Source of the DNA: Helicobacter sp. 16-1353
GTDB lineage: Bacteria; Campylobacterota; Campylobacteria; Campylobacterales; Helicobacteraceae
NCBI RefSeq assembly: GCF_003288815.1
Contig: NZ_NHYM01000007.1
Span: forward strand, 1 to 64,000
Reading direction: 5' to 3'
Length of the DNA: 64,000 nucleotides
Part shown: piece after piece, positions 2,632-43,506 of the stretch
Numbering within the stretch: the first letter of the stretch is position 1
Layout of the letters: every line of letters begins with the position of its first letter
Notes under the pieces: generated by a model
Databases searched by the model: none
Told to the model about the DNA's origin: nothing
Seen by the model: the letters and a program-made list of their open reading frames with translations, nothing else
Position numbers and translations under genes: made by a program

Positions 2632-2634
2632 TTA

Positions 2635-2648
2635 AGATTCTAGAATCT
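2635..2648. repeat. AGATTCTAGAATCT palindrome, copy 1
   Basis: Perfect 14-base palindrome immediately after the hotdog gene stop. An identical copy lies at 2842-2855. Part of the GAATC word excess seen across the window. Confidence 0.6.
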
Positions 2649-2841
2649 GCATATTTTGGTGATTTGGGATTTTAGGGATTCTACGCTTGAAGTGGAATCT
2701 TTTAGCTTCTCTAGTAATTCTTTTGAAAATCCATCAAGTAGGTTATTTATAATTTTTATTAGATTCTTTTAGTTTGGAATCTAGATTTTTATTTAGGGAT
2801 TCCAAATTTTCTTTAGATTGTAAATCTAATTTTTTATTTAA

Positions 2842-2855
2842 AGATTCTAGAATCT
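2842..2855. repeat. AGATTCTAGAATCT palindrome, copy 2
   Basis: Second exact copy of the 14-base palindrome at 2635-2648, about 75 bases upstream of the lipoprotein promoter. Confidence 0.6.
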
Positions 2856-2929
2856 ATATTTAGCTCCATTTGGCTTTTAATATTTAATTTTAGGCATTTT
2901 TATATATTTTAGTATAAAATTAGATTTGA

Positions 2930-2935
2930 TATAAT
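2930..2935 (+). promoter_or_regulatory. Extended -10 box of the LPP20 lipoprotein gene
   Basis: Perfect TATAAT preceded by TG one base upstream (TGATATAAT), 26 bases before the ATG at 2962. An AGAGGA ribosome site lies near 2949. No clear -35 box, as is usual in Campylobacterota. Confidence 0.5.
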
Positions 2936-2961
2936 TTTATAAAATGTAAGAGGATAGTAAG

Positions 2962-23629: not shown

Positions 23630-26464
23630 TTATTGTTGTAGCAAATTTTCCCAAAGCCCTCTAATCGCCTCTTTGGAGAATTTTTCTTGCACGATTTGCT
23701 TGGCATTTTTGCCAAAATTTTCTCGCATTTTCTCATCGCTCATTAGCATTTTTAGGGAATCTGCAAAGGCATTCAAGTCATTATCGCTCACCAAAAAGCC
23801 ACTTTTTTCATTCTCAATTATATCGCTTGGTCCAGTTTTGACATCAAAAGCCACGCTTGGTAGCCCAAAATATCCGCTCTCTAAAAGCACCATTCCAAAG
23901 CCCTCATAGTGGCTTGTAAGTGCATAAATGCTAGATTTGGCATACTCATTTTGGATATTTTTAGTAAATGGTTTTAGCACTATGGAATCGCCCAAATTCG
24001 CCGCTTTTATTTTTTTCCAAAGCTCATTTTTTAGGATTCCATCGCCTACAATGTGGAGCTGCCACTTGGAAAACTCCGCCTTGAAGCTAGAATCTTGTGC
24101 CAAAATCGCCCAAATATCAATAAGCCGCAAAAATCCCTTTTGATTATCGTCCATTCGCCCAATGGATAGGACGATTTTTTGGCGAGATTTTTGGGAATCT
24201 ATGGGGCTAAAAGGCGTTAGGAAGTTTGGAATTACAGCGATATTTTTATGATATTTCTGCCAAGTTTCTAGCTCTTTTTTGGAGAGAATAACAAGCATAT
24301 CAAAGTAATTATTTCGCTTGTGATAGCGAGTGAAATTTAGATGAATTAGCTTGATATATTTTGCGACTTTGTGGCGGAAAATAGGCGTATAAACCCAGTC
24401 GCTAATGATGAAAAAATCAATATCTTTATAGCGTTTTTTAATATGGAAGCTTAAAAGTGGCTTATAGAGATTTTTAAAATAGAATTTTTTAAGCACATTT
24501 TGCGTCCATTTGGCACTAAAATCACTCTCGCCAATATCGCAATAAAAGCTAAGTTTGACATTTTTTAGACTATAGGGCAGAGTTTTATTGCTTCGATAAA
24601 AGCTTAGAATTTCCACGCTATGCCCACTTTCCGCGAACAAATTCGCTAGATTTACCACCACACGCTCCGCTCCGCCAGTGATAGAAATATCGCCGATAGT
24701 TAGCAAAATGCGTTTGGGCGATTTGTGGGGGTTGGTGAGATTTGGACTATGTGAAACTGTTGGATTATGTGGATTTTCTAAACTCGCTAGATTCTGCGAG
24801 ATTCCTAGATTGCGCGGAATCTGTGTTTTAAGCAAAAATCCCATTACAAAGCCAAACATTATAAAAATCGGCTCTAAGATTATGGGATAAATCGCATCAA
24901 AAACGCTCTGTGTGGCAAGTCCGCAAAGGAAAATAAGAAATGATAATGCGATAAATGTGGTCGTTGAATCTTGCTCTATTAGATTCTGCTTCGGTAGATT
25001 CTTGGGCGGATTTTTGCTAGATTCCACATTTTCCGGAGATTCCACATTTTTGGCAGAATCTAAAACTTTCGTAGAATCTAACATTTTCGTAGAATGCTCC
25101 GGCGAATCTAACCCAAGCGATTTATTTAACGCCCTTTTTGCGCTAACAAACATAAAAATATACATCATTACCACAAGTCCAAAGCCAAGAATCCCAAACA
25201 TAAAAAATAGGCTAACGACATAATTATGCGGAGAATTATAGAGATTTACGCCATCTCTAAGCGAGTAGGTGGAGTTTTGGAGATTTCGCGCTCTGGATTT
25301 TTCCGGATTCTGCCCCGCTTCTTTGTAGTAAATATATAGATAACTCCCAATATTAAAGGGGCTAAGCGTATGTGGGACAAATGGCGAATCTAGGGCGGAT
25401 AGAAAGGTGGACTTTCCCATAGCAATGCGAGAGAGCGAAGAGTGCTCCCAAGTAATCTCGCTTTTGCCGTTTTTTGTGCTTTCGCTCTTGCACTCCAACC
25501 AGCCATTAAAGCAGCCCTCGTCATATTTCCCCATTTCCCTTGGCGGAGTGTTCCACACGATGTGGAAGTTATCAACCATATGGGCGAAATTGTATCTTGG
25601 CGGAAGATTCTTTGAAAACTCATAAGCCACAAAGAAAAATACAACTAAAAATATCCCAAAAATAGCTAGAATCCGCCGCTTATATGGGTATTTCCAAAAC
25701 ACAAAGCAAGAGCAAATCATCGCCATAAATGCCACTAAAAATGAGCGTTCGCTATTTGCGATTATGGCAATTAGGCAGATAGCAATAAGGACTAAAAATA
25801 TTGCCTTTTTCGCCCAGCTTCTAGCGATACAGAATCCCGCCAAAGCAAATGCACTAGGATAAAGCAGCCAGATATTATAAGTAAAAATCGACTGAAAGAA
25901 AAACGGCTCATTGTAGCCAAAGTCCCTACTCCACGAGCTAAAGTCATTTCTAATCCATACAAATATCGTAGCTACCACATTCACCGCACACATATAAACG
26001 AAAACATAAAAAAAGCCTAAAGCGTATTTTCTAGCGATGTAAAAGGCAAAAATATATGAGAGTAAAAACAGCAAAAAATACTTGAAAATATGGGAGTTTA
26101 TCTCCTTTAGCACTTGCGAGAAGCTAAGCGGCATAACGGTATCAAAAACCAGCAATAGCGAGATAAAAACTAGCCCCAAAAAAGTAAAAATGGGAATCTT
26201 AATCGCCCTAAAAGAATCTAACGAAATAAGCCTAAAATGCGTGATTATAAGCACCACTCCGCCAAGTAAAAAGAAAGTTTGCGTCCTTAGAGAGCCGTTA
26301 ATACCGAATGCATACAAAATCATACCGATAGCAAATAGGGCAAATGTGATTATTTGGGACTTTGGAGATGGTGCATTGTGTGGCGTTGGGCTTTGGAGCG
26401 TTACTTGGTGTGGTAGAAACTCTGTGGGCGATATGGCATTGTGTGGCGTTAGGGGCTTTTTCAT
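23630..26464 (-). CDS. O-antigen ligase / GT4 glycosyltransferase fusion
   Basis: A 944-residue fusion. Residues about 40-550 are a polytopic membrane domain of the Wzy_C/WaaL ligase type; the large periplasmic loop carries the typical NSPHNYVVSLFFMFGILG near 410-428. Residues about 586-944 are a GT4 transferase: ITGGAERVVVNLANLF at the N-terminal fold and YEGFGMVLLESG, the E-x7-E donor motif, near 855. Two low-complexity linkers lie at about 450-500 (Asp-Ser/Glu-Ser repeats) and 550-585. The first 35 residues hold a TPHNA-containing repeat. It probably builds and transfers a surface glycan. Richer in G+C than its neighbours; it sits between comEC and the second ligase. Confidence 0.8.
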   Translation of the reverse strand: MKKPLTPHNAISPTEFLPHQVTLQSPTPHNAPSPKSQIITFALFAIGMILYAFGINGSLRTQTFFLLGGVVLIITHFRLISLDSFRAIKIPIFTFLGLVFISLLLVFDTVMPLSFSQVLKEINSHIFKYFLLFLLSYIFAFYIARKYALGFFYVFVYMCAVNVVATIFVWIRNDFSSWSRDFGYNEPFFFQSIFTYNIWLLYPSAFALAGFCIARSWAKKAIFLVLIAICLIAIIANSERSFLVAFMAMICSCFVFWKYPYKRRILAIFGIFLVVFFFVAYEFSKNLPPRYNFAHMVDNFHIVWNTPPREMGKYDEGCFNGWLECKSESTKNGKSEITWEHSSLSRIAMGKSTFLSALDSPFVPHTLSPFNIGSYLYIYYKEAGQNPEKSRARNLQNSTYSLRDGVNLYNSPHNYVVSLFFMFGILGFGLVVMMYIFMFVSAKRALNKSLGLDSPEHSTKMLDSTKVLDSAKNVESPENVESSKNPPKNLPKQNLIEQDSTTTFIALSFLIFLCGLATQSVFDAIYPIILEPIFIMFGFVMGFLLKTQIPRNLGISQNLASLENPHNPTVSHSPNLTNPHKSPKRILLTIGDISITGGAERVVVNLANLFAESGHSVEILSFYRSNKTLPYSLKNVKLSFYCDIGESDFSAKWTQNVLKKFYFKNLYKPLLSFHIKKRYKDIDFFIISDWVYTPIFRHKVAKYIKLIHLNFTRYHKRNNYFDMLVILSKKELETWQKYHKNIAVIPNFLTPFSPIDSQKSRQKIVLSIGRMDDNQKGFLRLIDIWAILAQDSSFKAEFSKWQLHIVGDGILKNELWKKIKAANLGDSIVLKPFTKNIQNEYAKSSIYALTSHYEGFGMVLLESGYFGLPSVAFDVKTGPSDIIENEKSGFLVSDNDLNAFADSLKMLMSDEKMRENFGKNAKQIVQEKFSKEAIRGLWENLLQQ
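26372..26455 (-). repeat. Imperfect direct repeat at the start of the fusion gene
   Basis: GCATTGTGTGGCGTT occurs near 26372 and again near 26437 (plus strand), 66 bases apart, so the reading frame is kept. It encodes the repeated TPHNA residues at protein positions 6-10 and 27-31. Confidence 0.5.
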
Positions 26465-26735
26465 ATCGCCACCTTAGCTGGATATGTAATTGATAATGTG
26501 GCAGATTTTTTATGGGTGGAGAATCTAGCGTTTAAAAAACTTAGTTGGCGGAATCCAAAAGCGAAACTAAAAGAAGCGAATCTAAAGAGATTAAATCGTT
26601 TGTGGAATCCAAAAGTGGAGAATCTAAAAAGGGCGAATAAGTGGGATTTGAATGTGAAAAGATTTAGAAGAAAAAATTTGAGTGGTGTGAAAAATTTTAG
26701 TGGCGAAAGATTCCGCCACTTTTTAAAAGAGTGTT
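26465..26735. other. Spacer between two ligase genes, full of GAATC words
   Basis: No convincing gene. The 271 bases hold many GAATCC/GAATCT and GTGGAATCC repeats. A plus-strand open frame (26498-26821) exists but is built from these words and is antisense to the ligase gene end. May be decayed coding sequence. Confidence 0.5.
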
Positions 26736-28199
26736 TTAGGCTTTGGAAGCTCCATTTGGTGGATTTTTGCGTGAATCTACAAATGATTTTGTGGAATCCG
26801 CAACAAGTGAGCCAAATATAAATGCTAAGCTTAGAGCTAAGAATGTGGATTCTGGGTGTCCTGTGAGTGGGTCGCCACTTGTTCCAGCTCCGATATAAAG
26901 TAGCATAATGCCCCCCCCTAGGATGGCAGAAATTGGGAGTGCAGAGTTAGGCTGAGTTGGGGTAGATTCCGCTAGATTAGTGGATTCCGTGCCGGAATTT
27001 AAAGCGGATTCAATATTAGATTCCGCACCGGAATTTTTGATGGAATTAAAGCCAAATTCCACAGATTCCACTCTAGATTCTGCGGATTCTGCCCTATTTT
27101 TACGCCATATTTTAAGATACTTCCAGCCCATATTAAATACCGCAAAATAGAAAAATAGTAGGCTTAAAAGCCCTATAATCCCACGCTTTGCCATAAAGTT
27201 AAGAATATCATTATGTCTTTTGCCCCGCCCATCGCCGATAGTATTGATATTTTTATCCGTGCCACTTAACTCTTTAATCTCAGTAGTTCGTTCCGCCGCA
27301 CTTTTTGCACTTAGTCCAATTAGTGGCGAAATCCTAAACATCGCTAATGCTTCCTTATACATCACCAGCCTAAGCCCAATTGATGAGCTATAATCGCCAC
27401 TTTTGATTTGCTCTAGTTCGCTCTGTGTGTATTCTAATCTATCGTGTGGCGTGGCTTGTGCGACTATGTAGCCGATAATTCCAATTAATAATAAAAATGA
27501 TAAAAAGTATTTTAGGGCAGTTTTTAGATTTATGATTTTGGTAAAAATACTAAAGATAAATAGCACCACACACGCAAATACAACGCCCAGCACGACGCCT
27601 CTAAGCCCACTTCCCACGACTCCAGAAAATGCCAAAAGCGAGGCAATCAAAAAAACTGCCTTATATTTATGGGAGCTAAAAATAAAAAGGATTAGATTCA
27701 TCACGCATAATGCCCCGCAGATAATGCCAAACTCATTTATCCCGCTAAAGCCCTCTACCCTAGCCCCAGCGTATAATAAATCTGTAAAAATATAAAGTTG
27801 CGATAATGCGATAAGTCCATTGATGATTCCAGCCGCACAAATCGAAAAATACAATATGTTTTTATTGATTTGTGGCTTTGTTTTGAATAATAAAAGAATG
27901 ATAAATGCGAATAATAAATATTTGCTAGGTAAATCTAACTCGCTAAATCCAATTGATAAGCTACTATTTACCAAAAGTGGCGGGAGTGCGGAAAATGCCA
28001 TTAATAAAAATGCGATGAAAAGAAATTTTTCCTCTTTTTCTAGGGCGAAAACTGCGAGTTTTTTTAGCTTTAAAAAAATGTAATATGATAGCAAAACTAA
28101 AAATAGCAAAATGCTACATACTTGCACACTAGGGCGAATCCCACTCGTTACAAAAAACCCCACCACAAGCAATGAAAACAAAATATAAAAAATTCGCAT
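26736..28199 (-). CDS. O-antigen ligase family protein (WaaL/Wzy_C) with G8 tract
   Basis: A 487-residue polytopic membrane protein. About eleven hydrophobic helices and a periplasmic loop with RHNDILNFMAKRGIIGLL (His329), the WaaL catalytic region, plus Arg-rich AGARVEGF and GLRGVVLG segments. Residues about 369-418 form a Glu-Ser-rich linker before the last TM helices. Codons 428-430 (GGG GGG GGC) contain a run of eight G. It is expected to join glycan to lipid A-core or another carrier. AUG 28199 lies 35 bases after the dnaB stop region; transcription probably starts upstream in dnaB or locally. Second ligase-like gene in tandem. Confidence 0.82.
   Translation of the reverse strand: MRIFYILFSLLVVGFFVTSGIRPSVQVCSILLFLVLLSYYIFLKLKKLAVFALEKEEKFLFIAFLLMAFSALPPLLVNSSLSIGFSELDLPSKYLLFAFIILLLFKTKPQINKNILYFSICAAGIINGLIALSQLYIFTDLLYAGARVEGFSGINEFGIICGALCVMNLILFIFSSHKYKAVFLIASLLAFSGVVGSGLRGVVLGVVFACVVLFIFSIFTKIINLKTALKYFLSFLLLIGIIGYIVAQATPHDRLEYTQSELEQIKSGDYSSSIGLRLVMYKEALAMFRISPLIGLSAKSAAERTTEIKELSGTDKNINTIGDGRGKRHNDILNFMAKRGIIGLLSLLFFYFAVFNMGWKYLKIWRKNRAESAESRVESVEFGFNSIKNSGAESNIESALNSGTESTNLAESTPTQPNSALPISAILGGGIMLLYIGAGTSGDPLTGHPESTFLALSLAFIFGSLVADSTKSFVDSRKNPPNGASKA
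26911..26918 (-). repeat. Poly-G8 tract inside the O-antigen ligase gene
   Basis: Eight C on the plus strand, G8 in the coding strand. The length seen keeps the frame. A loss of one G would end translation about 25 codons later; a gain would replace the C-terminal TM region. Runs of this type are classic contingency loci in Helicobacter and Campylobacter. Confidence 0.75.
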
Positions 28200-42207: not shown

Positions 42208-43506
42208 ATGAGCCGAAATCCCCAAATTACGCAGAGAAATATCGAATCTATTTTTAAGATATATGATGAGCTAAATAGCGATATGAGCCACAAAACCTCA
42301 GGTGATGATATTTGCACGCCGATGGAATGCGTGAAAACTATGCTTGATTATATCCCGCAAGACTTTTGGGAGCGAGAGAATCTAAAGATTCTTGACCCTT
42401 GCTGTGGGAATGGGAACTTTGGGGCGTATTGCCAGTTTAAAACGGATTTGGATAATATTTATTTTAACGACACAAATCCTACGCGCACGGCAAACTGCAA
42501 GAAGATTCTAAACCCAAAGAATCTCACAAATTACGATATTTTTGGCTTGGAATTTGCCATGAATGTGGAATCTCGCATTAATACAGAATCTAATTCAAGT
42601 GCGGAATCTAGTTTGAATACAGAATCTCGCACCAACGCGGAATCTGCGGAATCTTGGGACTTAATAATGGCGAATCCGCCCTATTCCGGCGGTGGCAATA
42701 AAAATAAAAGTCTCTCAAATAAATTCATCGAATTTGCCATAGATAGGCTTAAAAAGGGCGGATATCTCTGCTTTGTAACGCCGAATAATTGGCAGACTTT
42801 TAATAACTCAAATACGACCTTAAAAAAGCTTTTGACGCAGGGCTCGTTTGTGGTGCTTGACTATGATGTGAAGCGGTTTTTTAAGAAGGTCGGCTCGTCG
42901 TTTGTGATTTTTATCTGGCAAAAGGGCGTGTTTGGCAAGACGAAAATTTTTAATAATTATCTTTTAAAAGACATTCAAACTGACATTTTAATCCCCAAGA
43001 ATCTCCCATTTATCCCGCTTTACATCTCACAAATTACGCTAAATCTAGTGGAGAAACTAATCCAAAAAGATAATAATAGATTCCACTACCGATGCGATTT
43101 GCATAACTTCACAAAAAAGGAATTTTTGAGTGATTTTCAAAGCGAGATTTTCCGCTATAAAACTATCCATACGCCCTTAAAAACGAGGTTTGCCAAAATC
43201 AAACAAGATATTTATGACAAGTGGCTCATCATCATTCCGCTATCAACTTATTATGTGCCTTATATCGCTCACAACGCCAACACAACGCAGTCTGTGGGAT
43301 ATTTTAGCTTTGATACAAAAGTGGAGGCGGAGGCGTATTTGGAGATAATCACCCAAGATTATTTTAAGGCTTTAATCCACATCACAAGATATGGGAATTT
43401 CAACAATATTATGGTTTTAAAACATTTGAGATTCGACGATGTGCCAGATTTAACTAGCGAGGAAAAGGGCGAGATTGAGAAATTAAGGGCAACTATTAAA
43501 TACTAG
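42208..43506 (+). CDS. N6-adenine DNA methyltransferase (type II-like)
   Basis: A 432-residue DNA methyltransferase. Motif I ILDPCCGNGNFG (residues 61-72), motif IV NPPY (156-159) preceded by WDLIMA, then FVTPNNWQTF and a target-recognition part. Residues about 120-149 form an inserted Glu-Ser-rich stretch coded by six copies of GAATCT between the usual motif III and IV; without it the distance would be normal. G+C is higher than in flanking genes. Convergent with a nuclease-like gene with a four-base overlap, so the pair is probably a restriction-modification system. Recognition site not predictable. Confidence 0.85.
   Translation: MSRNPQITQRNIESIFKIYDELNSDMSHKTSGDDICTPMECVKTMLDYIPQDFWERENLKILDPCCGNGNFGAYCQFKTDLDNIYFNDTNPTRTANCKKILNPKNLTNYDIFGLEFAMNVESRINTESNSSAESSLNTESRTNAESAESWDLIMANPPYSGGGNKNKSLSNKFIEFAIDRLKKGGYLCFVTPNNWQTFNNSNTTLKKLLTQGSFVVLDYDVKRFFKKVGSSFVIFIWQKGVFGKTKIFNNYLLKDIQTDILIPKNLPFIPLYISQITLNLVEKLIQKDNNRFHYRCDLHNFTKKEFLSDFQSEIFRYKTIHTPLKTRFAKIKQDIYDKWLIIIPLSTYYVPYIAHNANTTQSVGYFSFDTKVEAEAYLEIITQDYFKALIHITRYGNFNNIMVLKHLRFDDVPDLTSEEKGEIEKLRATIKY
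42566..42655 (+). repeat. Six GAATCT copies inside the methyltransferase gene
   Basis: Within about 90 bases GAATCT occurs six times in one frame, each giving Glu-Ser. Spacers differ (CGC, AAC, AGC, GCG codons), so it is not a simple tandem repeat. Confidence 0.75.

Follow-up and report, generated by a model that had tools for sequence, protein, structure and literature searches.

A GAATCT-rich insert in a Helicobacter methyltransferase gene is probably a local expansion of a genome-wide RGAWTCY word

The cyanobacterial highly iterated palindrome HIP1 (GCGATCGC) and the alternate HIPs are short symmetric words repeated thousands of times, within genes as well as in spacers. They occur clade-wide, with some members lacking the word, and their function is unsettled. 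DNA uptake sequences (DUS) of Neisseriaceae and uptake signal sequences (USS) of Pasteurellaceae are over-represented words that are kept against loss at low-constraint sites in competent lineages. In Campylobacter jejuni, a short methylatable word, RAATTY, reportedly serves the uptake of self DNA. GANTC is the site of CcrM, HinfI and M.HpyAIV. The word described here, RGAWTCY, is found in Helicobacter sp. 16-1353 (G000; 1,907,433 bases) and in most of its family. The window, a stretch of 64,000 nucleotides within contig C30 of that genome, contains a methyltransferase-like gene with a dense block of GAATCT words. With a probability of about 0.72, this block is a local expansion of the genome-wide word, which would be recognized as DNA, resist loss, and be multiplied by tandem duplication in tolerant linkers.

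The gene in question (42208..43506, + strand) is accessory, resembles adenine-specific DNA methyltransferases (matches to MTS, Eco57I and N6_Mtase), includes 15 GAWTC words, and is carried by 11 of the 121 family genomes. Six GAATCT words at 42566-42655, as the first-pass annotation had noted, are followed closely by a seventh GAATC, which gives seven words at 42568-42676. Sequence, Tandem Repeats Finder (TRF) and orthologues together delimit an insert of approximately 28-31 residues (42559..42651, + strand) that holds the six GAATCT words in a diverged tandem arrangement. The insert can be read as four 18-bp units and then two 9-bp units, each opened by GAATCT; the spacer of unit 1 is similar to those of units 3 and 4. 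TRF reports a period of 18 at 42580-42627 (70% matches) and of 9 at 42637-42654.

All seven close orthologues (62-68% identity, three genera) align on both sides of the block and lack 28-30 residues there, which removes the possibility that the linker is common to the gene. Two distant relatives (37%) are likewise shorter at this place. At the junction, one GAATCT is present in three orthologues (G058, G040 and G057), GAATGT in another (G043), and no such word in the three from genus g2. The block is a true insert, at a site that has a single word in three orthologues, and it resembles an 18-bp tandem duplication in which the spacers drifted and the word stayed. The gene is a carrier of the insert, and any action of its product on RGAWTCY may be regarded as putative. 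DNA around the insert site is identical in G058 (genus g5; L384) and G040 (genus g3; L385), and this identity across genera suggests recent transfer of the methyltransferase gene.

Throughout the window, GAATC and GATTC occur 413 times, compared with 139.9 +/- 10.8 expected, and none of 100 dinucleotide shuffles reached this number, so chance is excluded as the origin of the excess. Counts in whole genomes were compared with the reversed pattern within each genome. Because this control is biased in places, the control word being nearly missing from some genomes, an expectation from base order (observed/expected, O/E) was used as well. The complete genome has 195 copies of GAATCTNNNGAATCT and 1 of its reversed control, and 9,733 copies of RGAATCY (one per 196 bp) and 1,167 of its control. 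Finer counts come from a 464-kb sample, a quarter of the genome, that consists of the window and 20 stretches of 20 kb chosen by the authors (L012-L031). This sample contains 3,154 GAATC words, or one per 147 bp, where 1,040 are expected, and 1,134 copies of AGAATCT, where a second-order Markov model predicts 132. The word is preceded by A or G in 83% of cases and followed by T or C in 91%, with a weaker T and A beyond. The consensus is T-RGAWTCY-A, with a two-fold symmetric, seven-base core, an A/T center, R at logo position -1 and Y at +5. Forms of GANTC behave unalike, as the sister word GAGTC occurs 84 times in the sample where 265 are expected. RGAWTCY has the properties of a HIP-type word, being short, symmetric, far above Markov expectation, and present in genes and spacers alike.

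The enrichment does not depend on reading frame. Open reading frames (ORFs) were called mechanically in the 464-kb sample (at least 100 amino acids, greedy choice), so that part of what is counted as spacer is unannotated coding sequence. On the sense strand of these ORFs, GAATC (1,243) and GATTC (1,202) are equally common, and all six coding frames are enriched by 1.7-3.3 fold over synonymous shuffles. Density is 9.0 words per kb in intergenic DNA and 6.4 in ORFs, with a maximum between convergent genes (17.2 per kb) and few words in the last 20 bp ahead of starts (3.7 per kb), as expected if words settle where constraint is least. Because the word is symmetric, enriched in six frames, and densest between convergent genes, it appears to act at the level of DNA and not as a peptide linker.

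The first-pass annotation had noted that the words give Glu-Ser or Asp-Ser in every frame. This is correct for the blocks that it named; across the 464-kb sample, 1,156 of 2,445 ORF words are in the ES/DS frame, and the rest encode R/G-I, R/G-F, x-N-x or x-I-x. Selection at the protein level for Glu/Asp-Ser linkers, with codon choice then generating the words secondarily, could call on the ES/DS-rich inserts and on DS and ES being more frequent than under random pairing (1.68 and 1.35 fold, respectively). However, SE and SD are unenriched (0.73 and 0.76), and neither DNA symmetry, six enriched frames, nor denser spacers would follow from such selection, which makes it hardly credible. As the main cause, peptide-level selection is ruled out by the results on frames and spacers, and so is the notion that the word is mainly a matter of Glu-Ser linkers.

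Clusters, defined as four or more words with gaps of at most 25 bp, number 85 in the same sample and are found in several frames of ORFs and outside of ORFs. Spacings between words on the same strand favor multiples of 3 and 9. In spacers, a search for helical phasing gave nothing convincing, and the strongest of the seven periods tried was 9, which fits tandem units. Flanks of words no more than 60 bp apart are more alike than those of random pairs (0.354 versus 0.284), and 5.6% of them reach at least 0.6 identity, compared with 0.15% at random. Head-to-tail copies with similar spacers, of the kind that defines short tandem repeats, are present in the fusion gene described below and in the methyltransferase gene, and flank similarity and the content of tandem arrays point the same way. 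The proportion of tandem arrays that hold the word exceeds that of matched random segments in the G000 sample (75 of 205 versus 42.0 expected), in G042 (37 of 67 versus 18.0) and in G040 (12 of 44 versus 8.5), and not in G017 (0 of 27 versus 1.0); this excess is partly built in, since TRF detects arrays more readily where words are retained, and it counts for less in favor of expansion to that extent. We read clusters as the product of tandem duplication and occasional copying, in which spacers drift and the word is kept.

A mobile or gene-converting short element that copies word-rich pieces around the genome might produce similar strings. As many as 33 of the 85 clusters resemble another cluster beyond the words themselves, compared with 3.8 when spacers are shuffled and 2 of 85 for random segments. 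Some clusters are thus copied pieces, not independent expansions, which is a point against the expansion reading. The window also has a word-rich intergenic stretch (2632..2961, no strand assigned) with relatives of approximately 200 bp at three other places. However, the best-studied of these is part of a coiled-coil gene, and similar habits of amino-acid use in linkers likewise make clusters alike. Moreover, 24 indels of at least 6 bp between two species that are 96% identical over 184 kb have words touching inserted stretches only twice, a density of 7.1 per kb where the background is 5.6, with small numbers. Because long indels hold no excess of words and gains are not raised (see below), the word does not spread as a unit, and we consider a mobile element quite improbable. 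A word that moves as an inserted unit, whether mobile or similar to repetitive extragenic palindromic (REP) sequences, was rejected on these indels and gains. The earlier proposal that a short word spreads or expands and is tolerated in linkers is upheld for local expansion and for tolerant linkers, and not for a spreading unit. Neither of the outcomes that it set as refuting, linkers shared by orthologues or a word count equal to expectation, was observed. The local expansion is real and looks like ordinary tandem duplication of word-holding stretches whose spacers drifted afterward.

The turnover of words was followed in an alignment of four near-identical species of genus g3 (96-98% identity). 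Between G037 and G040 (184 kb), 93.0% of 2,081 GAATC words are intact, compared with 84.5% for other 5-mers with two G or C, and GAATC ranks first of 155 words. Its rank is first of 154 in G037/G041 and fourth of 154 in G037/G036. Conservation exceeds the frame average in all six coding frames, barely so in GAATC frame 2 (0.840 versus 0.824). Polarized changes in 84.5 kb of columns comprise 39 losses where 74.7 are expected, with pooled control words at 0.955 of expectation, and 16 gains where 17.2 are expected, with pooled controls at 1.08 and small numbers. A smaller pass over 57 kb gave 34 losses (63.1 expected) and 14 gains (14.8 expected). The number of words is held by slow loss and not by fast creation. 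Slow loss without raised gain is more in keeping with a mutational cold spot, or with selection that acts on standing sites, than with a symmetric drive.

Several of these data also weigh against a loss-resisted word, and above all against one upheld by DNA uptake. By our arithmetic, a symmetric selection or uptake drive that halves losses should raise gains about 1.7-fold, and gains are flat; a rise of that size looks unlikely, on small numbers. Recent losses exceed gains by 39 to 16, small numbers that place the quartet off equilibrium. Flat gains and the excess of losses both weigh against a simple uptake-drive model, with small numbers in each case. Because word positions turn over between genera while density stays, gains are needed in the long run, and this need sits unreconciled with the flat recent gains. 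Among 99 control words, five are lost even more slowly relative to expectation. Word positions in aspS coincide between genera with an O/E of 1.58, compared with 1.3-6.0 for nine controls, which gives no sign of a site-specific role. Uptake words are also not expected in tight clusters, and any binding, uptake or phenotype is putative here.

Enrichment of the word spans most of the family. By hand count over the 121 family genomes, RGAATCY reaches at least twice its reversed control in 76 of 87 genomes outside of genus g2; the other 11 are all seven of genus g11, three of g8, and G082. In g2 itself the word is below its own control in 33 of 34 genomes, the exception being G001 (511 versus 406). 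We take g2 to be the gastric genus on the basis of genome counts, not from a label. Most non-gastric Helicobacteraceae have approximately 1-7 copies per kb, and the highest count is that of G042, with 19,199 copies of RGAATCY in 2.7 Mb, or one per 141 bp. Elsewhere in the order, 137 genomes of other families include a single one above 1,000 per Mb, G121 (family f2). Smaller samples gave no GAATC enrichment in g8 (0.89) or g11 (0.88-0.98). Among the matches listed, GAATC O/E is 2.0-2.4 in H. pullorum, H. mesocricetorum, the H. caesarodunensis record, and 13S00401-1, and is 1.02 (unenriched) in 13S00477-4. Values of 0.25-1.3 come from records outside of Helicobacter and from a metagenome-assembled genome labeled H. 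cetorum that clusters with Arcobacter and Sulfurimonas. The base of the AspRS tree is unresolved, so that the tree is compatible with loss of the word in g2 or with gain elsewhere.

GAATC is depleted in g2 (L220-L225 and L156; O/E 0.63 in G017 and 0.44 in G001), the reverse of its relatives. In G082 and the g8 genomes (L157, L037, L039, L040, L050, L054 and L061), GAGTC is depleted and GAATC is unenriched, as if the word were lost after its sister form had been cleared. Carriage by phages is not apparent among 80 IMG/VR loci examined, in which median GAATC O/E is 1.2 and the highest loci are short. No earlier report of RGAWTCY was found in the literature searched, with subscription papers and preprints lying outside of the search. 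The part of a report on H. hepaticus and other species that was available to us gives other motifs (PMC5217627).

Methylation offers a possible cause of the enrichment. As has been proposed for HIP1, a methyltransferase acting on the word could bias repair or mutation such that copies build up with no selection directly on them. GANTC includes the word, and in H. typhlonius 99.7% of 20,546 GANTC instances are methylated, with the excess unremarked in the portion of that study drawn on here (PMC4705304). In cyanobacteria HIP1 co-occurs with cognate methyltransferases, according to the part of the source used (PMC4390886). The depletion of GAGTC where GAATC is enriched also suits this explanation. 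However, when up to 15 candidates per genome were scored, many g2 genomes, although unenriched, proved to have a CcrM-type (GANTC) enzyme, and none was found in five enriched genomes (G000, G036, G037, G040 and G113). G000 has four more methyltransferases, all of patchy distribution: one pair accounts for 23 of 121 genomes in all and the other pair for 33 of 121, with none in G111-G114. These enzymes were rejected as drivers, as their presence fails to track enrichment; therefore, methylation by them is not required for the enrichment and does not suffice for it. New words do not arise faster than expected, and the published HIP1 model requires mismatch repair. To our knowledge, Helicobacter lacks classical MutS and MutL, which also counts against this explanation, and we regard it as improbable.

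A protein that organizes or segregates the chromosome might instead bind RGAWTCY genome-wide, with words kept for spacing or density. The site is two-fold symmetric, occurs on both strands, and is clade-wide, and long word-free islands are missing from the 464 kb, in which the longest gap is 1,512 bp where 1,172 is expected. Inspection of low-density bins gave ordinary metabolic or restriction genes and no clear island. However, words are clustered and over-dispersed (variance/mean 2.34) instead of even, and a protein that binds RGAWTCY is putative. We know of no organizer sites that approach this density, known ones being far sparser, and we view an organizer as unlikely.

The preferred reading, local expansion of a DNA-recognized word, can be set out in three steps. 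First, some factor would recognize RGAWTCY as double-stranded DNA, and selection or drive against loss would uphold its number. Second, tandem duplications of 9-18 bp that include the word would arise in tolerant linkers and spacers; spacers would then drift while words persist, leaving runs of residue pairs such as Glu-Ser, Asp-Ser and Asn-Leu. Third, and weakest, the factor might be a step of self-DNA recognition or uptake in natural transformation. The Helicobacter family is naturally competent. We favor an uptake-type self word because of this competence, the position of words at low-constraint sites, and the analogy with Campylobacter, and an uptake function is nonetheless a guess by analogy. 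For this third step, a factor of some other kind is a real possibility at less than even odds, an uptake step is a tentative candidate, an organizing protein is unlikely, and a methylation- or repair-linked bias more unlikely still. It is doubtful, though conceivable, that RGAWTCY is the densest known uptake-type self word, used by enterohepatic Helicobacteraceae and lacking in the gastric-type genus, with a receptor that reads the seven-base symmetric site. The strings in linkers would in that case be a by-product, a suggestion to be held just as loosely.

Other word-rich places in the window lie in neighboring genes. A gene resembling O-antigen ligases (Wzy_C; 26736..28199, - strand) has a block with seven GAATC on the coding strand (26965..27089). 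Relative to the sole orthologue compared (G113), the block is an ES-rich, 41-residue insert with five words. In 36 protein pairs around aspS, residues inserted in G000 hold 7 words in 216 bases, compared with 7.0 per kb elsewhere; all seven fall within the ligase gene, and the 13 residues inserted in relatives hold none. In a Wzy_C-glycosyltransferase fusion gene (23630..26464, - strand), the linker that joins the two domains is rich in words (24966..25108); seven of them, some in each orientation, lie at 24966-25078. Within it, an 18-bp repeat (25055..25095, - strand; 2.3 copies, 91% matches, one word per copy) has the look of a recent duplication. Between the fusion and ligase genes, the spacer contains a 15-bp repeat with GAATCC in each unit (26605..26638, no strand assigned). 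The word-rich ES/DS linkers that the first-pass annotation had seen in these two genes are both present, and for two of its three genes, methyltransferase (seven orthologues) and ligase (one), the block is an insert.

The four related segments of approximately 200 bp include, in addition to window positions 2632-2961, L022:10890-11116 and L022:12760-12987; one sits inside the coiled-coil gene, and the window copy is intergenic and fragment-like. A low-complexity stretch after a poly-G tract (L013:18490-20000) has 43 words in 2 kb and a long open frame (DSQTSQNP-like) without an ordinary start, suggestive of a repeat protein that is phase-variable or decayed. Poly-G/C tracts of nine occur 66 times in the 464 kb (0.9 expected), as is typical of phase variation. 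GATC is nearly missing from the same sample (34, both strands counted), and GGCC, GCGC and CATG are rare in the window. The genome thus strongly avoids typical restriction sites alongside its excess of GAWTC.

A word placed every 140-1,000 bp or so across most of a family shapes codon choice, spacers and protein linkers, and it accounts for unusual Ser-rich linkers in these proteins with no appeal to protein function. Alongside HIP1, it is a second and independent example of a tiny word kept by the thousands. The family offers cultivable species and close relatives without the word, which makes the reason for keeping it testable.

RGAWTCY shares with the HIPs the traits given at the outset. 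It differs in its sequence, odd length, W center, local strings, and lack of a tested cognate methyltransferase that tracks it, and it reaches one per 141 bp (G042), compared with approximately one per 1,000 nt for HIP1 in the part of the source used (PMC4390886). The word resembles DUS and USS as an over-represented word held against loss at low-constraint sites of a competent lineage; by comparison, it is symmetric, shorter, several-fold denser, and clustered, and its role in uptake is putative. RAATTY is likewise short, symmetric, methylatable, and from a related lineage, whereas its role depends on methylation, and no tested methyltransferase tracks RGAWTCY. Finally, GAWTC is a subset of the GANTC sites of CcrM, HinfI and M.HpyAIV, from which RGAWTCY is set apart by the depletion of GASTC, the importance of the R and Y flanks, and an enrichment that is independent of the CcrM-type enzyme.
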